Shown piece by piece: positions 2,717-24,493 of a stretch of DNA of 28,715 bases. Origin of the DNA: a virus; the IMG/VR virus record IMGVR_UViG_3300030104_000763, positions 1 to 28,715 of that record; one strand, given 5' to 3'. The notes under the pieces were generated by a model. That model was not told where the DNA came from, searched no databases, and saw only the letters and a list, made by a program, of their open reading frames with translations. Both the position numbers and the translations under genes were made by a program. Position 1 is the first letter of the stretch. Each line of letters starts with the position of its first letter.

Positions 2717-3117
2717 TATTTTTAATAAATATTTGGATTTCTATAAAAGGTATTCAAAATGGTGGTGATAATGGCTTTGAATATCCATATAAAGCAATGT
2801 CACCTGTAGATGGAAGATATAAGTTATTTGAATCAAAAGAGGAAGTTTACAAAGAACTTGAAATGTGTTATGATGAACTTATTGAAAAAAGGATAGAAGA
2901 TATTGGTGAAACTTTATATATAGAACATTTTTATTTTGCTAATACTATTGATTTATTAGATATTAAATATCAAAACATAATTAAAAAATATAATTTTAGT
3001 AAGTCCTTTAACACTCCTGCATATCCTTCAATTCAAGAAACACCTGCATCAATAATAGATGATTTTATGATTATTGATAATGAAGTAAAAAAATTTAAAA
3101 TGAAGGAAAAAGAATAA
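2450..3117 (+). CDS. Tail assembly chaperone, long form made by -1 frameshift
   Basis: The second part has no convincing start of its own: the ATG at 2797 lacks a ribosome site, and the frame is open back to the codon after a TAA at 2695, across the A9 run. A -1 slip on A AAA AAA (2698-2704) would join residue 85 of the short form to a sequence starting IAEIIFLINIW and running to the TAA at 3115-3117, for about 222 residues in total. In lambda and many siphophages the frameshifted form recruits the tape measure while the short form coats it. The stop overlaps the tape measure start (TAATG). The slip is inferred from sequence, not measured. Confidence 0.75.
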
Positions 3118-4850
3118 TGCCCAAAGATACACATATAATAGAAGTAAAAGCCACAGGTGCTAAAAAATCTGAAAAAGAAATAAAAGGTGTAAGTGGTGCT
3201 TTAGGTGGACTTGCTAAACAAGCAGGTGTAGCAGCAGCAGCATATTTTGGATCACAAGCATTATTGCAGGGAATTAGGTCATCAATAGATTTGTTTGCTC
3301 AACAAGAAGTTGCAGAAAAAAAATTAAGATTTGCAGCAGGAGCATCTACTGAAGAATTAATAAGACAAGCAAAATCATTGCAACAGGTTACAAGTTTTGG
3401 TGATGAAGCAATTATAGCACAACAAGCATATGTGAAATCATTAGGTGTATCTACAGAGCAAACAAAAGAAATAGTAGCAGCATCAGTTGATCTTGCAGCA
3501 GCAATGGGCATATCACTTGAAAGTGCTGTCATGAATACTACTAAAACATTAAGTGGTATGCAGGGTGAACTTGGTGAAAAGTTACCTGCTGCATTTAAAC
3601 TTTTAACAGCAGAACAATTAAAAGCAGGTGAAGGTATAAAATTTATAAGAGAACAATTTAAAGGTACTGCTGAAGTTGAAGCAAAATCTATGACAGGACA
3701 ACTACAACAAATGAAAAATGCTGTAGGTGATGCAGGTGAAGCATTAGGTGAAACATTAGCACCTATTGTAGTTACTATAGCAGGAAAACTTAAATCAGCA
3801 GCAGAAGCATTTCAAAGTTTTATATTTAATACTACAGCAAGTGATACTGAAATTGCTATAAAAAATTTAAAAGAAATGGGAATTGACACTACTACATTAG
3901 AACTTAATATGGTTAGGCTTGAAAAAAATAAAGCAATGTCTGCTTTAGGAGAAAGTGTAATTACAGTAGGCACTAACATGGACACAGTAGTCAGTAAGCA
4001 AAATGAGTTAAATTCTGCAAATGAAAAACATTTAGAAAGCATGAATCAAAGAGTTGCATTAGAACAAGAAATATTAGAAGCAACAGGTGGACAAAAAGAT
4101 TTAGAAGAAATTTTATTAGATGCACAATTACAAAAAGGTGAAGTATTATCTTTTGCACAAATACAAAGGTTAGAAGAATTAAAAGCAGCAAGAGAAGCAT
4201 TTGAAACTGAACAATTAGAACATGAAGCAAGAATAGAAAATATACAAAAAGAAATAGAAGAAAGACAAAAACTAGAAGAATTAAGATTAAATGAAGTTGC
4301 ATTAGAAGAACAATTAGGTGTTAATAATAAAAAAAATACAGAAGATGAAATAAAAGATGAAGGCAAAAAATCTAAAATAAAAGATAAACTTTCTAAACTT
4401 GATCTTAAAAATAAAGGTACAATTAAAGAAAAGATTAAAGAACTAGATGTTTTTGAAAAAGCAAAAGATATTAAAGAAGGCATAAGAACTGCTTATGGAA
4501 TTGGTGCTGATGCTTTTAGATATGGAACTAAACTTGGTGGACCTGTTCTTGGTGCAGTATTAGGTGCTGTAGGTTTAGCAGGTGGTTTAGCATATCAAAA
4601 GAAAATTATGGCTGCACAATATGGTGCTGATTTTGTAACATCAGGTCCTCAATTAATGATGGTTGGTGAAGGTAGTGGACCTGAAAGAGTGCAAGTAACA
4701 CCACTTGTTGATGAAAATATTAATGGACCACAAGGTGGCAATATTAATCTTACTATAAATTCTCCTATAATGTCAGAAGAATATACTGAAGAAGTTATAA
4801 TTCCACAGATTAAAGAAGGATTAAGATTAGGTGGAGATATAGGAATTTAA
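3117..4850 (+). CDS. Tape measure protein
   Basis: A 577-residue protein. Its order is: basic N-terminus, alanine/glycine-rich hydrophobic helix (around residues 27-50), long helical region, a charged coiled coil (about residues 300-440, with many E/K/Q heptads), a second glycine/alanine-rich hydrophobic segment (about 475-495), and a beta-like C-terminus. This helix-rich, two-hydrophobic-segment layout after the chaperone pair is typical of tape measures, which set tail length and help deliver DNA. Using the usual 1.5 angstrom per residue, the tail would be around 85-90 nm, short for a siphophage. The start overlaps the chaperone stop by one base. Confidence 0.85.
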   Translation: MPKDTHIIEVKATGAKKSEKEIKGVSGALGGLAKQAGVAAAAYFGSQALLQGIRSSIDLFAQQEVAEKKLRFAAGASTEELIRQAKSLQQVTSFGDEAIIAQQAYVKSLGVSTEQTKEIVAASVDLAAAMGISLESAVMNTTKTLSGMQGELGEKLPAAFKLLTAEQLKAGEGIKFIREQFKGTAEVEAKSMTGQLQQMKNAVGDAGEALGETLAPIVVTIAGKLKSAAEAFQSFIFNTTASDTEIAIKNLKEMGIDTTTLELNMVRLEKNKAMSALGESVITVGTNMDTVVSKQNELNSANEKHLESMNQRVALEQEILEATGGQKDLEEILLDAQLQKGEVLSFAQIQRLEELKAAREAFETEQLEHEARIENIQKEIEERQKLEELRLNEVALEEQLGVNNKKNTEDEIKDEGKKSKIKDKLSKLDLKNKGTIKEKIKELDVFEKAKDIKEGIRTAYGIGADAFRYGTKLGGPVLGAVLGAVGLAGGLAYQKKIMAAQYGADFVTSGPQLMMVGEGSGPERVQVTPLVDENINGPQGGNINLTINSPIMSEEYTEEVIIPQIKEGLRLGGDIGI

Positions 4851-7800
4851 TGGCATTAATAAGTCAAAACTTTAAGAATGATACTGTAAGCACTACTATT
4901 GATGTAAAACCATTAATTGTACTTGCTACACAAGATTTAGAAAATGATAGATATAATATATTAGATGTTTTTTCAACTGATAATGTTGTTTTAAAAGACA
5001 ATTATGATAATAGTCATCAAGCAAAAGAAATATTAGATAAAATATCATCTATAAAAAATGCTGTAGATTATGATAAAAAAAGATTAAAAATAAACACATT
5101 TAGATTTACTCTTAAAAATTATTTTGATCCTACAAAAACATTAACAAGTTCAGATAAATATAAAGTAAAAGAAGGTGAATTGCCTGATAATAAATTTGTT
5201 GGTACTTATGTTATTTTATATTATAAATCACAATCTACAAACACTATTAATATAGATTTAAATCCTACTTTGTCTAATGATGATTGTTCTATTATGTTTA
5301 CAGGTATAATAAATAGAGTAGATCAAGATGACAAGTCAATTAAAATACAAGCAGAAGATAATGTTCAAAGTTATATATCAGATGTAAGTTTACCAAGAGC
5401 AAAAGCAAATGATATACTATTAACAAACAAATTTACAAATTTAGAAAAAGATGGTGTTATATCAATGACTTATGGCAGAGCAGATAGAGTGCCTACATAT
5501 GTTATAAATGGTATAAGTTATGTAGATTTATATAATACAGCAGGATTTTATACTACAAGAAAAAATTTAACAACACAAGGAATACCTTTTCCTGTATATG
5601 GCACAACTTCTGTAGTTAAAGGTAGCAATGATTATATTTCAAAACAAACTAATAGTGTTCCAACTTCAGGATATATAAATGCAGAGGAAATAGAATATAC
5701 AGAACAATTAACAGGGGATATAATACCAGAATTAACTAGACCTCATGATGCTCCTGATTTTCAAGCAACAGGTGTAGATTTTGTTGTTCCTATAGGAGCA
5801 GTTTCTGATTTAACAGGTCATAATTCTATATTTAATTTAACAACAGATTGGCACATTGAAGATTATGGTGGTTATTTTTATAATTTTCAAACAAGAAATG
5901 AGTTAAAATATTACAGAGAAGATGATACATATTTAATAGAAAATACAAGTTTAGGTTCAGGTTGGGGTAGCCCTATTTTTTATCACCCTTCTACACATAA
6001 TCATAAAGATGGAAGGTGGAAAATTTATTTTTTACCTCAAAAAATAAAAGTTTCTTCAATAATGGGTTTAAATAATTATCATTTGCCACAAGAAGAACAA
6101 TCATCATCTGCTGCTTCTGAATTAATAATAAAACCATTAAATGGAAAACAATGGAAAGACATTATAGAAAACAATATGAACTTTCATAATATATATCATG
6201 ATATACCAATAGATAGTGAAGCAATTTATGAAGGCACAGGAACTATTGTATTGCAATCTAAAACAACTGCTGATTTTAGTACAAGTGAACTCTATACAGA
6301 AGGTAGCCAAGATATAGAAGTAGATAAAATAATAATGTTTGAATATTTTAATAATGGTTCAGAAGGTCCTGTTACAGTATATGACATGGGTCAGGCTTCA
6401 GAATATGTAAATCAAAATCAAGGGCAAGGTGTTTATAAAAGATGGACAGGTATTGGTGAAATTGCTGTTAAAGAAATTGTACAAGATGGTGCAATTAGAT
6501 ATTCAAGTGTTATTGGAAGAAAAGATGCAGGTTCAACAGAGAACTTACAATTAGTAAATAATTTAATAGAATGGCAACAACAGAACCTAACAGAAGATGA
6601 TGTCACTTTGTCTATGGTTATTAATGGAGCAGATGAAACAATACCTACAGATTTTGAAAATTGGACTACTGCAATAGAAACATATTTAAATGGAGTAGTA
6701 AACACAGAAATAGATGGAAGTATATATTGGTATGGAGATAATTGGGAATCATTTACTGTGTCTTTTTCACAGCCAATATGTTCAGGTCTTATGGTAGCAA
6801 ATGAAGGTAATATACCTTATGGTTTAGGACAAGGTCAAACTACAGATTTTATAATTGGTGATTCTAATATTTTTAATATAGATGATAACAAACTTATGAA
6901 GATTAGAAATGTTTGGAGTTATTTATTTGAACAATCTTTTACTAAAATTATGAATAATGTTTTAGAATATGAAGCAAGACAATATTTAAATGCAAAAGTA
7001 TCAGAAGGAGTAGATGTATATATTTCAACAGAGCCATTACAAAATAATATGTCTGATGTTTATCATGTTTATCATGAAGTTTTTCATGGTGAAGAAATAG
7101 TTGGTTATTATAATTTTAAACAACAATTAAGCAAAATGATGCAAAATATTTTCTTATCACAAAATGAAAATTATCATTTGTATGGTTTAATAGATGAATC
7201 TCCTACTTACTTTCAAGACAAGTGGAACAATGATTATGCAGATTTAAGAAAGTGTTTTTATAGAAGAATGTTAAAGTTTATCTATCAATCAGATTTAAAT
7301 TATGATCCTGTAGATGATATGTTTAATTTTCAAGTAGATTACAATCTAAATACTTTTGATATAGATGATTTTGTAATACATATAATAACTTATGTTGATG
7401 ATGTTTTAAACACAATTAATAAAGGTGTATTTGATTATTTGTCAGCACAAAATGAAGAAAGAAATGGTATATATGAATTTGGTTTGCAATATAATGATAT
7501 AACTACTTTAGAAAATGAGATAAGACAATATGGTACAATTTATGAGTATGAATATCAAACTGATAGTATTATTAATAAACCTATAGATATTATAATTGAC
7601 ATTTTAAGGAGGGAAATGGATTTTGGTGTTAATGATAATGGATTTCTAGATACTACATTTTATGATGAGCAATCTATATATAAATCAAGAGATGTTTATT
7701 CTAATTGGAAAATGGGTTTTTGCATACATGAAGAAATAGATGGTAAAAAATTAATAGAAAACATTTTATCTGAAACTATGAGTTATTTTACTTTTACTCC

Positions 7801-8734
7801 TGATGGTAAATTTTCATTAGTTACTTTAAAAGAAAAATACACAATAAAAGATATTGATCATTTTATAAAAGAAGATGACATTTTAAAATATAAATTTTCT
7901 AAAACAAAAAAAGAAGATTTAGTATTGCAAAGTAAATTGTTTTATAGATATGATAATGGTTATGGTAAATATTTATTTTCAACTGAAACATTAAAAATAG
8001 AAAATTTATTGCCTAATTATGATGGCTACAATTACTACAATTTAAATGAAACAACAGGCTATAAAGAAAGAAATTTAAGATACCATTCTGAAACAGATAC
8101 AGTTAATTTATATCATAAAAATTATTTATTAAATAATTGCAACCAACATTTACAAGTAAAATTAGAATTGCCACTTAATTATGCAGATGTAAAAATAGCA
8201 GACATAATTAACTTACCATTAATTAATAATGATGTAGTTTTTGGATTAGATTATAGCAAAGTGCAGATGTTAAATGGACAGCCTATTTATCCTGCATTTA
8301 TAGTAACATCAGTAGATATTAAATTAGATAAAGTATTATTAGAAGCATATCAATTACATTATTTAGGAACTGATGGATTGCATGGATTTGCATTAGAAGG
8401 TGAAGAACTAACAGTAGTTGGTAATTTGAATGAGTACAATTCAAAATATCCTGATATACATAATTGGAATTATATAAAAGAAGAAGATAGAAGTCCTGAT
8501 TATACATATATACAAGGTGCAGAGATACCTTATGGTGATGCTAATGCAGATGGTAATATAGATGTTGCTGATTTAGTGTCAGTTGTAAATCATGTTTTAG
8601 GAATACAAACACTTAATGAAGGTGATGCAACAAGAATTTCTAAATATAATTTTAATACTAAAACTATAAATCCAACTGCTGATGTTATAGATGTTACAAA
8701 AGTAGTTGAGCTAATGGATACAATGTGGGAATAG
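4850..8734 (+). CDS. Large tail tip/hub-like protein with C-terminal dockerin-like repeat
   Basis: A 1294-residue protein directly after the tape measure, where the tail hub or tip protein normally lies. The first 200 residues are beta-rich and resemble hub N-domains (RLKINTFRFTLKNYF, then IMFTGIINRVDQDDKSIKIQ). The middle is rich in tyrosine, aspartate and asparagine. A later part (about 980-1060) includes ENILSETMSYFTFTPDGKF, resembling hub-like domains. The last 70 residues contain a dockerin-type calcium loop, GDANADGNIDVAD (1229-1241), and a weaker second copy, ADVIDVTKVVELM (about 1277-1289). Arginine is scarce and always AGA or AGG. The hub role is inferred from order; the dockerin-like motif is visible directly. 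Confidence 0.65.
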   Translation: MALISQNFKNDTVSTTIDVKPLIVLATQDLENDRYNILDVFSTDNVVLKDNYDNSHQAKEILDKISSIKNAVDYDKKRLKINTFRFTLKNYFDPTKTLTSSDKYKVKEGELPDNKFVGTYVILYYKSQSTNTINIDLNPTLSNDDCSIMFTGIINRVDQDDKSIKIQAEDNVQSYISDVSLPRAKANDILLTNKFTNLEKDGVISMTYGRADRVPTYVINGISYVDLYNTAGFYTTRKNLTTQGIPFPVYGTTSVVKGSNDYISKQTNSVPTSGYINAEEIEYTEQLTGDIIPELTRPHDAPDFQATGVDFVVPIGAVSDLTGHNSIFNLTTDWHIEDYGGYFYNFQTRNELKYYREDDTYLIENTSLGSGWGSPIFYHPSTHNHKDGRWKIYFLPQKIKVSSIMGLNNYHLPQEEQSSSAASELIIKPLNGKQWKDIIENNMNFHNIYHDIPIDSEAIYEGTGTIVLQSKTTADFSTSELYTEGSQDIEVDKIIMFEYFNNGSEGPVTVYDMGQASEYVNQNQGQGVYKRWTGIGEIAVKEIVQDGAIRYSSVIGRKDAGSTENLQLVNNLIEWQQQNLTEDDVTLSMVINGADETIPTDFENWTTAIETYLNGVVNTEIDGSIYWYGDNWESFTVSFSQPICSGLMVANEGNIPYGLGQGQTTDFIIGDSNIFNIDDNKLMKIRNVWSYLFEQSFTKIMNNVLEYEARQYLNAKVSEGVDVYISTEPLQNNMSDVYHVYHEVFHGEEIVGYYNFKQQLSKMMQNIFLSQNENYHLYGLIDESPTYFQDKWNNDYADLRKCFYRRMLKFIYQSDLNYDPVDDMFNFQVDYNLNTFDIDDFVIHIITYVDDVLNTINKGVFDYLSAQNEERNGIYEFGLQYNDITTLENEIRQYGTIYEYEYQTDSIINKPIDIIIDILRREMDFGVNDNGFLDTTFYDEQSIYKSRDVYSNWKMGFCIHEEIDGKKLIENILSETMSYFTFTPDGKFSLVTLKEKYTIKDIDHFIKEDDILKYKFSKTKKEDLVLQSKLFYRYDNGYGKYLFSTETLKIENLLPNYDGYNYYNLNETTGYKERNLRYHSETDTVNLYHKNYLLNNCNQHLQVKLELPLNYADVKIADIINLPLINNDVVFGLDYSKVQMLNGQPIYPAFIVTSVDIKLDKVLLEAYQLHYLGTDGLHGFALEGEELTVVGNLNEYNSKYPDIHNWNYIKEEDRSPDYTYIQGAEIPYGDANADGNIDVADLVSVVNHVLGIQTLNEGDATRISKYNFNTKTINPTADVIDVTKVVELMDTMWE
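8522..8731 (+). other. Dockerin type I-like calcium-binding domain in the large tail protein
   Basis: Residues about 1225-1294. The first loop, D-A-N-A-D-G-N-I-D-V-A-D, has acidic or amide side chains at positions 1, 3, 5, 9 and 12 and glycine at 6, and is followed by the hydrophobic helix LVSVVNHVLG. This matches the dockerin/EF-hand-like pattern. The second copy keeps the ending (D-V-I-D-V-T-K-V-V-E-L-M) but its loop is degenerate, so one or two calcium ions could bind. In cellulosomes such repeats bind cohesins; in a virion the partner is unknown. Confidence 0.65.
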
Positions 8735-8735
8735 C

Positions 8736-9446
8736 ATGATAAATACACTAAACATAGATAAACACAATGTAAGTTTGCAAACTGAATTGCATTATAAAGC
8801 AATAGAAATTATATTTCAAGGCAAATTATCTATAAAAAGTTTATTACCTAATGATTATTTATTAAAAAAGGGTGTTGGTAAATTAATCATATTAAAGTTT
8901 AATCAAAATGAAGAATTGTTTAAAGATTTATTTAGTTACACAGGTGCTTGTATTATTATAGAAGCAACATTGATAGATTCAGAACTTAATAAACATAAAT
9001 TATCAATAAATACAAACTATTTAACTACATGGAATAGAATGACCACTACACTAAAACAAGATGGCACACAATTAGTTAAAACATGGGAAGGTTTATCTGA
9101 TAATTATGAAAAGTTAAATGGATCAATAAGGAATGATGGATATGAAAAAACTATTTATATAGATGATGGAACTAAAACTAATACTAAAATACAACAAAAA
9201 ATTATGACATATCCTAACACATATAAAAAAGATAGAAATATAAAGATTTTAGGCAATCAATACACAGATGGTGCAAAATACAAAGAAAAGGGCAAAAACA
9301 CACCATATAAAGGCTTATATCATGTATATTTAGATACATTAAAGGTGATGACAGGTGAAATGCCACAAGAATCATCAAAACAATTAGTAAAATTAACAAA
9401 AAAGAAAACTAAAGGTTTAGTTAGAAAAATTAGAAGGAGTTATTAA
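8736..9446 (+). CDS. Tail-module protein of unknown function
   Basis: A 236-residue protein that I cannot assign to a family. It starts two bases after the large tail protein's stop and ends by overlapping the next start by one base, so it is part of the tail operon. The N-terminal half is mixed alpha/beta with no membrane segment. The C-terminal third is strongly basic, ending in LTKKKTKGLVRKIRRSY. Position suggests a tail tip, baseplate or adhesion-linked protein. A role in binding nucleic acid is also possible from the basic tail, but nothing in the context supports it. Confidence 0.55.
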   Translation: MINTLNIDKHNVSLQTELHYKAIEIIFQGKLSIKSLLPNDYLLKKGVGKLIILKFNQNEELFKDLFSYTGACIIIEATLIDSELNKHKLSINTNYLTTWNRMTTTLKQDGTQLVKTWEGLSDNYEKLNGSIRNDGYEKTIYIDDGTKTNTKIQQKIMTYPNTYKKDRNIKILGNQYTDGAKYKEKGKNTPYKGLYHVYLDTLKVMTGEMPQESSKQLVKLTKKKTKGLVRKIRRSY

Positions 9447-10474
9447 TGGCTATTGCAAATTACCAAATCCCTACCAAATTAACATTTTATCCAAGTTATC
9501 TGCAATATGCTTATGCAGCAGGACTTATTAATGGTGTAGATTTTAACACACAAAATGACATTACAGAAGAAGATATTTATAAGTTGGCAATATTAGACCC
9601 ATCAAATACAAGCAAGTTTGAATTTGCATTAGATGATTATATAGCATTTGATTTAAAAAACACTAATTGGAATTTTGATTTTGGTATGATGTTAGGACAT
9701 GATGCTTTAGAAGATGGTATATTTTTATTGCCTAATGCTTTTAGTAAAACAGAAGAAGGAATGGTGCAAGACCAAGTATTATCTACATCAGCATTAGTTA
9801 ATTGGTTTGATTCACCTTCTGCTTTAATAAATGGTTGGAGTGCTTTTACAATGTCTAACCTACCTAATGATAAAAATGGCATAGGATTAAATTGTGCTAA
9901 TCAAGGTGGTGTTATTAATATTGGTAGTTTGGTTTTTGGTAAATCTTGGACAGCACCACAGAATGTAGATTTAAATGCAAGTGTTAGTTATAACTATGGT
10001 TATAGTCAAAAGAAAACTATTGGTGGTAAAACTATATCACAAATGAATTATTACAAGCAATCTAAATGGTTATTAGATGCATGGGAACTTTCAGATACAA
10101 AATCAGATACAAGAACAGAAGCAACTGAATCAAGAAATGGATTAAGAACTTGGACAGCAAGTTGGAGTTTCTTGCAAGATAAATACACAATGAATCAAAA
10201 TAATATGCAAAATAGTAAAGGGTGGTCAGTTGATGATAGTAGTGAATATGCTACAGGTGCAGATGGAACAAGTTTATACAATTCAAGTGATGGCATAGAT
10301 TTTTTTACATCTGTTATTAAAACCACAATGGGTGGGCATCTTTCTTGTATTGTAAAAATATCTGAATCTAATAATCCTGATCAATGGGCAATAGTTAGGA
10401 TTAAGAAATATCAAATAAGTCAGAAAAGTCCTAAACTAATAGATGTTAAATTGACTTTGGAAGAACAAGTATAG
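9446..10474 (+). CDS. Putative minor tail protein
   Basis: A 342-residue protein, the last gene of the tail operon, directly before an intrinsic terminator. It has a good ribosome site (agaaggag) and a one-base overlap with the previous stop. The sequence is rich in tryptophan, asparagine and serine, with short repeated aromatic patterns (TNWNFDFG, RTWTASWSFLQDKY) suggesting beta-sheet structure like receptor-binding or tail-tip proteins. No enzymatic motif or membrane segment is visible. I do not recognise the family; function comes only from place and composition. Confidence 0.5.
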   Translation: MAIANYQIPTKLTFYPSYLQYAYAAGLINGVDFNTQNDITEEDIYKLAILDPSNTSKFEFALDDYIAFDLKNTNWNFDFGMMLGHDALEDGIFLLPNAFSKTEEGMVQDQVLSTSALVNWFDSPSALINGWSAFTMSNLPNDKNGIGLNCANQGGVINIGSLVFGKSWTAPQNVDLNASVSYNYGYSQKKTIGGKTISQMNYYKQSKWLLDAWELSDTKSDTRTEATESRNGLRTWTASWSFLQDKYTMNQNNMQNSKGWSVDDSSEYATGADGTSLYNSSDGIDFFTSVIKTTMGGHLSCIVKISESNNPDQWAIVRIKKYQISQKSPKLIDVKLTLEEQV

Positions 10475-22988: not shown

Positions 22989-24185
22989 ATGGGCTTAATA
23001 TGTCCTGTTTGTTTTTCAAAGCAATTAAGAAAAGATGGTTGGGTACATGAAAAACAGAGATGGTTATGTAAAAAATGTATGGGCAAAACTATATGTCCTT
23101 TAAACTCTGATGATGCAGAGATACTAACAGAAAATGTAAAACTTGCAAAACAAAAGCAATCCTACCAAGACCTTAATAGAATAGAAAGAAAAACCTTTAG
23201 AGAATATGCAAGGGTAGAAAATGCTGTTGGTATGTACAGCAATAAATTAGCACAGATTTTTGACAAATATCAATTAAACAAACTTACTAAATCACACAAA
23301 AGAACTTCATCAGCAGTTGGTGTATTGCAGTTTAGTGATGTGCATTTTAATGAATTGGTTGATTTAGAGCATAATAAGTATGACTTTAGTGTTGCATCTA
23401 AAAGATGTAAATACTTTGTTAAAAAGGCTATTATGTACTTTAAATCACAAAATATAAGCAATATACTAATAGCACAAACAGGTGACCTGTTAAATAGTGA
23501 TAGAAGATTAGATGAATTGTTATCAATGGCTACTAATAGAGCAAAGGCTACTTTTTTAGCAGTAGATATATTTCAACAAGTGATTTTGGATTTAAATAAA
23601 CATTTTAATGTATCAGTTGCATCAGTTACAGGCAATGAATCAAGAGTAAAAGATAATTGGGGCTGGAGTAAAATGTTAGCATCTGATAATTATGATTATA
23701 CTATATTTCAAACATTAAAGTATTTATTTAAAGATAGTAAAGTTAATTTTATTAATGGTGATCCTACTGAATTAGTAGTTGAGGTAGCAGGTCAGAATTT
23801 ATTAATGTTGCATGGTAATGGTGCAATTAAAAAAGGATTAGATACAAGTATAACACAGATTATGGGCAGATATAAAGCAAGAGGAACAAACATAGATTAT
23901 GTTATATTTGGTCATATACATAGTGCAAGAGTGTCTGATAGTTTTTCAAGAAGCAGTAGCATGGTAGGTGCTAATGATTATTCAGAGAAAGCATTGAATT
24001 TAGCAGGTAGGGCATCACAAAATTGTTATATATTTTATGACAATGGTAATAGAGATGGTGTAAAGATTGATCTGCAAAACTATGATGAAGATATGTATGA
24101 TATAAACAAATCATTAGAATCATATAATGCTAAAAGTCATGACAAAGTAAATAGTGGAACAACAATATTTAAAGTGGTAGTATAA
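22989..24185 (+). CDS. Zinc-ribbon plus calcineurin-like metallophosphoesterase
   Basis: A 398-residue two-domain protein. Residues 1-38 are a zinc ribbon (CPVC at 5-8, CKKC at 27-30) of the type seen in DNA-binding and transposase N-termini. Residues about 108-345 are a metallophosphoesterase: SDVH (116-119), GDLLNSD (165-171), GNES (215-218), LHGNG (H275) and FGHIHS (GHIH at 308-311). The usual GNH has glutamate in place of histidine. Such enzymes hydrolyse phosphodiesters, as in SbcD/Mre11-type nucleases or cyclic nucleotide enzymes. It sits inside the lysis cassette, an odd place for DNA metabolism; its substrate is unknown. Confidence 0.85.
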   Translation: MGLICPVCFSKQLRKDGWVHEKQRWLCKKCMGKTICPLNSDDAEILTENVKLAKQKQSYQDLNRIERKTFREYARVENAVGMYSNKLAQIFDKYQLNKLTKSHKRTSSAVGVLQFSDVHFNELVDLEHNKYDFSVASKRCKYFVKKAIMYFKSQNISNILIAQTGDLLNSDRRLDELLSMATNRAKATFLAVDIFQQVILDLNKHFNVSVASVTGNESRVKDNWGWSKMLASDNYDYTIFQTLKYLFKDSKVNFINGDPTELVVEVAGQNLLMLHGNGAIKKGLDTSITQIMGRYKARGTNIDYVIFGHIHSARVSDSFSRSSSMVGANDYSEKALNLAGRASQNCYIFYDNGNRDGVKIDLQNYDEDMYDINKSLESYNAKSHDKVNSGTTIFKVVV

Positions 24186-24493
24186 TGGATTGGTTTGATA
24201 TAGTAGATAGATATGGCATTGCAGTTGCAATGAGTGTTGTGATGGCTTTGTATATATGGAAAAGCACAAAGTTTATACAAGATGAATTGACAAGAGAATT
24301 AAGAGAATCTTTTGGTAGATTAGAAGGCATATTGGTTAAGTTAATTGACCAACAAAAGAAGATGCAGTTAGAACAAAAAGGTATTGAAAACTCTTACAAA
24401 ACATTAGTAGAAGTTATTGCTAAATTAAGTGGCAATGGATTAAGAGAAAAGTTTTTAAGAATGCAGGAAAGAAATGATAATAAAAAATATTAG
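24185..24493 (+). CDS. Holin-like membrane protein (BhlA-like layout)
   Basis: A 102-residue protein with one N-terminal membrane segment (YGIAVAMSVVMALYIW, about residues 10-25) followed by a long charged coiled coil (LEGILVKLIDQQKKMQLEQK) and a basic end. One transmembrane helix plus a coiled coil is the layout of BhlA/UviB-type holins and related bacteriocin-release proteins. It starts on the last base of the phosphoesterase stop and lies among lysis genes, so it is a good candidate for the holin. Confidence 0.6.
   Translation: MDWFDIVDRYGIAVAMSVVMALYIWKSTKFIQDELTRELRESFGRLEGILVKLIDQQKKMQLEQKGIENSYKTLVEVIAKLSGNGLREKFLRMQERNDNKKY

Follow-up and report, generated by a model that had tools for sequence, protein, structure and literature searches.

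Why should the tail-tip protein of a phage end in a dockerin? Cohesin–dockerin pairs are among the strongest modular protein joints known, and they occur in cellulosomes and in other secreted proteins of bacteria and archaea. For the stretch analysed here (the window; 28,715 nucleotides, positions 1 to 28,715 of the IMG/VR record IMGVR_UViG_3300030104_000763), the original prediction, made from the letters alone, placed a dockerin/EF-hand-type calcium loop and a weaker second copy at the C-terminus of a tail tip protein, and suggested that the module docks a separate virion or host component. The features concerned are:

3117..4850, plus strand: tape-measure protein (PHROG phrog_28, E 1.4e-5)
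4850..8734, plus strand: predicted tail-hub (central tail-tip) protein, an ORF of 1294 aa immediately downstream of the tape-measure gene
7559..8377, plus strand: predicted hub domain, model residues 25-297 (VIA Z 18.8 to 8rk3_b and 8vjh_A; 17.2 to lambda 8iyk_F)
8378..8536, plus strand: linker from the hub domain to the dockerin module, ending ...QGAEIPYG, delimited by alignments and by a dockerin-less subclade whose protein stops where the linker begins
8537..8617, plus strand: dockerin repeat 1, with calcium loop DANADGNIDVAD (8537-8572) and F-helix (Pfam Dockerin_1 positions 1-24; helix at model residues 360-370)
8644..8731, plus strand: dockerin repeat 2, degenerate and, in the alignment, interrupted by 14 inserted residues that L005-L011 lack (a low-confidence helix spans model residues 403-414)
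8736..9446, plus strand: F0, 236 aa, candidate dockerin partner, starting 1 nt past the hub stop and adjoining the hub in almost all loci long enough to include it
8736-9014, plus strand: F0 beta-sandwich domain, residues 1-93 (AlphaFold2, cohesin-like fold; the remainder is predicted to be disordered)
9446..10474, plus strand: F1, 342 aa, a conserved, putative tail-tip protein and alternative partner or receptor-binding component, after F0 in nearly all loci

The product of the ORF at 4850-8734 is, on its predicted structure, a siphophage tail hub of the gpJ/gp27 kind. AlphaFold2 models the last 415 residues of this product (mean pLDDT 72) with a domain whose fold matches, in VIA comparisons, the hubs of JBD30 and Chi (Z 18.8, 233-237 residues aligned), lambda (17.2), T1 (15.9), the marine siphophage R4C (14.2) and T5 (12.0), and its gene comes directly after the tape-measure match at 3117-4850, which upholds the description of the protein as a tail tip protein. 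Both the hub-domain fold (Z 12-19) and the position of the gene after the tape measure are shared with lambda gpJ, T5 pb3 and the hubs of JBD30, Chi and T1. In those phages, the hub continues into fibre or other domains as one polypeptide, and in lambda-like siphophages it runs on into the central receptor-binding fibre; here, in contrast, a short linker and the dockerin end the chain. Close relatives of the window hub were sought among annotated phages, as were relatives of two dockerin tails and of the L088 hub, and none was found; the L053 hub matches annotated phages at its dockerin end only, in two faecal phage contigs. GTDB genomes scanned for a host or prophage with two hub profiles likewise gave no relatives.

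Is the C-terminal module a dockerin? The loop D-A-N-A-D-G-N-I-D-V-A-D lies in frame at 8537-8572 (plus strand), 54-65 codons upstream of the hub stop, with every calcium-ligand position filled; a search for its DNA pattern gives a single match in the window and no match in 100 dinucleotide shuffles, bearing out the predicted loop. The weaker second copy is also present, in degenerate form (N-F-N-T-K...I-D-V-T-K, with Lys at ligand positions 5 and 12), and aligns with the complete second repeat of relatives such as L006 (D-T-D-N-S-G-S-L-D-V-V-D), so that at most one canonical calcium site is left. An HMM search with the last 70 residues, as originally proposed, gave Dockerin_1 (PF00404) as the top Pfam family (E 8e-4), but at 20.0 bits the match stays under the curated 22.9 bits and spans positions 1-24 of the 57 in the profile, that is, the first repeat only. 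The structure-prediction check came out in favour of the module: the C-terminal 66 residues of the model match dockerins solved by crystallography or NMR, namely 8x3a (probability 0.99), 2ccl_B (TM 0.65 by target, 26% identity) and 4fl4, a fold match of moderate confidence given a local pLDDT of only 35-70. Because the window copy scores under the Pfam cut-off, matches over its first repeat only and is degenerate in its second, the window sequence by itself falls short of proving a dockerin.

It is the relatives that settle the identity of the module. Searching IMG/VR with the hub brought in 13 loci at first, 30 in the next round and 80 in a later one, and nearly every complete hub among them ends in the module. 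PF00404 matches 51 of 54 sampled hub C-termini (best E 9.7e-17), with scores over the Pfam cut-off in L005 (26.2 bits), L009 (24.6) and L052 (36.1), and with both repeats spanned in L005 and L009. A profile of the hub tails finds the Clostridium thermocellum dockerin 1ohz_B at 8.8e-11, crystallised type-I dockerins of cellulosomes heading its list, and a smaller hub-tail profile (A1) likewise ranks dockerins first. Moreover, among 122 unique hub C-termini, 104 have the module in terminal position (E <= 1e-5), the others being mostly cut fragments or bearing the module elsewhere, with one small subclade truly devoid of it. Both repeats are canonical in most relatives: the ligands at positions 1, 3, 5, 9 and 12 are Asp (98%), Asn (83%), Asp (96%), Asn (87%) and Asp (98%) in repeat 1, and Asp (86%), Asn (79%), Asp (84%), Asn (85%) and Asp (94%) in repeat 2, and a hydrophobic V/I-L pair occupies loop positions 10-11 of each. 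Since the relatives match Dockerin_1 and dockerin profiles and keep the calcium ligands, the hub C-terminal module is almost certainly type-I dockerin-like and, judging by those ligands, would bind calcium. The window copy, being under the Pfam cut-off, might by itself be taken for an acidic, Asn/Asp-rich loop that resembles a dockerin by chance. Persistence of the motif in homologues had been set beforehand as the test of that reading, and the motif is kept; family-wide conservation, the profile matches and the absence of the pattern from the shuffles make a chance match vanishingly improbable, and the homologues refute it.

The phage module resembles the type-I cellulosomal dockerins, such as that of C. 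thermocellum Xyn10B (1ohz_B), in the profile match, in its two tandem D-x-N-x-D-G-x-I-N-x-x-D loops, each with a helix after it, and in being a small C-terminal module on a linker. It differs from them in being borne by a phage tail hub and not by a secreted enzyme, with no recognisable cohesin in the genome. C. thermocellum dockerins carry a Ser-Thr recognition pair (PMC5772552), in place of which the phage dockerins have V/I-L at positions 10-11; the Ser-Thr pair is species-specific and not family-defining.

The link between hub and dockerin is no product of the search design. A dockerin-loop DNA pattern, chosen independently of the hub, matched at least 120 IMG/VR stretches; among the matches listed, 57 of 119 loci have the loop inside an ORF identified as a hub by an HMM from which the dockerin had been taken out, and in 51 of those 57 it lies at most 110 residues from the hub C-terminus. 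Conversely, a scan of the distant clade with hub-only patterns, though these were built from dockerin-bearing members, found the module on essentially all complete hubs; in the one exception (L227), a frameshift has left the dockerin in the ORF that follows.

Comparison of the sequences also indicates that the module is portable. In the dockerin-less subclade (L036 and L038-L041), the last residues are ...QLHYLGTDGVHGFV, and the chain breaks off at the very point at which the linker would start, so that linker and module are missing as a whole; in L049, L071 and L121 the module is internal; and at L149:2143-3954 (minus strand) a 604-residue paralogue of F1 has a complete dockerin inserted mid-protein. 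Besides a dockerin hub, L149 carries three consecutive F1-type genes, L035 has a decayed copy of the module, and L042 and L043 form a single 36.8-kb contig with a dockerin-type hub at each end, which could represent a terminal overlap or two hubs. The module also changes faster than the hub, with 63% identity as against 94% between L018 and L019, 64% as against 85% between the window and L003, and dN/dS of 0.35-1.3 as against 0.11-0.32 (a rough measure, from few codons). Such a difference fits the expectation for an element that determines specificity.

The gene content of 21 contigs was compared in search of a partner present or absent together with the module; all tail families also occur in the dockerin-less contigs. 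The sole marked co-variant is a 102-residue membrane/coiled-coil family (24185-24490 in the window), which 7 of the 8 close genomes with a dockerin and 8 of 9 distant ones encode, and which is absent from near-complete genomes in which the module is decayed or missing. This co-variation is probably a coincidence, and the protein, of membrane/coiled-coil type, was judged unlikely to be the dockerin partner.

What, then, might the dockerin hold? The gene next to the hub encodes F0, the first 90 residues of which are modelled by AlphaFold2 with a pLDDT of 80-92 as a beta-sandwich of nine to ten strands. In a VIA comparison of this model with the PDB, cohesins take every one of the first nine rows (2vo8, Z 8.9; 6kgc_A, 8.6; 2jh2, 8.4, among others) and the majority of the best 50; about 100 residues align with 2vo8 and 2jh2 of C. 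perfringens and 2xdh of Archaeoglobus (Z 8.4-8.9, rmsd 3.1-4.3). Values near 8 are common, however, the 8.9 of F0 being slightly above the usual level of models without clear matches, and some non-cohesin beta-sandwiches (YcnI and the GH20 N-domain, Z 8.0) lie within 1 Z of the best. Foldseek ranked CBM2 and Ig-like folds over cohesins, CBM2 first, all at E > 0.01. Cohesins and CBM2 domains share one superfamily in SCOP, and the two groups of matches thus indicate the same fold family. F0 differs from cohesins in length (about 93 residues as against about 140) and in having no sequence or profile similarity to them: none of 78 F0 sequences matched PF00963, and profile-profile comparison by hhalign with six PDB cohesins, all verified as such, gave no signal (probability about 0). 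The search for cohesin domains in the phage that had originally been proposed was also negative, PF00963 being found neither in the 29.9-kb record of the window nor in 44 other phage records. On the evidence of the model, the likeness of the F0 N-domain to cohesins is suggestive. In a 108-kb viral contig, L137:9962-10699 (minus strand) encodes a domain that by eye looks like a cohesin (DVAGFQFTL...VVLGFSFDGSVIPAGSGTL), followed by a dockerin; a Pfam search with this first domain gave no cohesin match, and its comparison with F0 was not significant.

F0 is retained in the dockerin-less subclade, in which position 22, small in 97% of the other sequences, is M, K or Y, position 29 (Gly in 95%) is N, K or S, and the hydrophobic positions 53 and 55 are mostly polar. 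Since the exceptions in control lineages are similar in number, a tie between these losses and the loss of the dockerin remains a hint only. Distance correlations with the hub controlled gave 0.08 for dockerin and F0, as against a partial correlation of 0.27 for dockerin and F1 with F0 also controlled, and so weakly favour F1 over F0 as the co-evolving partner.

We propose that the hub chain ends not in a fibre but in what would be a calcium-organised, two-helix plug on a flexible linker of roughly 50 residues. Each of three hub subunits, in a presumed trimer, would display at the tail tip a dockerin loaded with calcium, which would grip a separately encoded tip protein through a non-covalent, calcium-dependent joint; the best single candidate for the gripped protein would be the F0 beta-sandwich, with F1 as the alternative. 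A contact of the dockerin with a partner, and a role for it in adsorption or assembly, are what we infer from the computed features. A docking role within the virion, whether F0, F1 or another virion protein is held, is on balance probable; for a calcium-dependent, cohesin–dockerin-like joint within the tip, with F0 and F1 as the best candidate and the alternative, the chances seem evenly balanced. The suggestion that a separate virion component is docked is thus plausible, given a neighbour predicted to be cohesin-like, but it found no support from PF00963 in the 45 phage records. That F0 is the partner is a tentative proposal. Equally tentative is the fuller reading, in which a large, uncultured group of phages supplies the two halves of the joint from its own genes, a hub dockerin and, next door, a divergent minimal cohesin, forming an exchangeable, calcium-dependent coupling for a tip part that other siphophages fuse covalently to the hub.

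The partner could instead belong to the host, the dockerin being a receptor-binding element that hijacks a host docking system by binding a cohesin protein on the cell surface. The lack of a Pfam cohesin in the phage records, the faster change of the module and its loss in one subclade, as a host switch might produce, are all consistent with this. However, neither the GTDB scans nor the annotated phages disclosed a host, and hence there is no host cohesin to show; moreover, loop positions 10-11 retain their hydrophobic V/I-L pair across divergent phages, which suggests a single conserved partner and not varied host receptors. We consider host docking unlikely.

Within the virion, the dockerin might grip F1 or the distal fibre proteins (about 25.2-29.5 kb) and not F0. 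F1 is as conserved next to the hub as F0 is, and its divergence correlates with that of the dockerin even when hub and F0 are controlled; on the other hand, profile searches with F1 give no cohesin-like match, and the F1 paralogue of L149 itself bears a dockerin, and would thereby resemble the plug side of a joint more than the socket side. An F1 or fibre partner in place of F0 appears quite unlikely. The module might also have no cohesin-type partner at all, and serve as a dockerin-derived, calcium-stabilised terminal cap or a clasp of the trimer. The absence of a recognisable cohesin beside it and the degenerate second repeat of the window would agree with such a part, but most relatives keep both repeats canonical, including surface positions 10-11, and insertion of the module at other sites and in the F1 paralogue argues for a portable binding module; a cap or clasp is an improbable reading. 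The joint within the tail tip is the one we prefer.

The dockerin domain itself is known; what appear to be new are its group-wide place on a phage tail hub and the possible cohesin neighbour. Gene 40 of Vibrio phage VvAW1 is similar to a dockerin type-I protein and was possibly acquired from a bacterium, near a putative attP (PMC3558961). Both it and the hub module are dockerin-like and carried by a phage, but the VvAW1 gene was not described as a tail component (PMC3558961). For an E. coli phage protein, a dockerin is mentioned in a structural comparison (PMC5967307). These two reports are the nearest in the open-access full-text literature, in which no account of a tail-hub dockerin came to light. 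A hub dockerin conserved in a whole phage group would place a joint of this type in the virion, for the first time in that literature. If the proposal is correct, it would account for a calcium requirement in assembly or adsorption, and it suggests a route by which tip proteins could be swapped without rebuilding the hub.

Two further observations concern the contigs themselves. The ends of the 29.9-kb record (29592-29924 and 2-688) encode the same gene family, which suggests that the record is a circularly permuted, near-complete genome. Nine loci in other viral contigs encode serine proteases of the trypsin-like type that end in a dockerin and are interrupted by a single in-frame TGA (L064:3217-4425, L070, L100, L102, L133, L143, L145, L152 and L163). 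The TGA sits exactly at the Cys codon TGT (SWGYGC) of the intact relatives L062, L148 and L160, and sequence capable of forming a hairpin, with a compensatory change, lies 3' of it, the folding energies alone not being significant; these loci are candidates for recoding of UGA to selenocysteine or cysteine in virus-like contigs.
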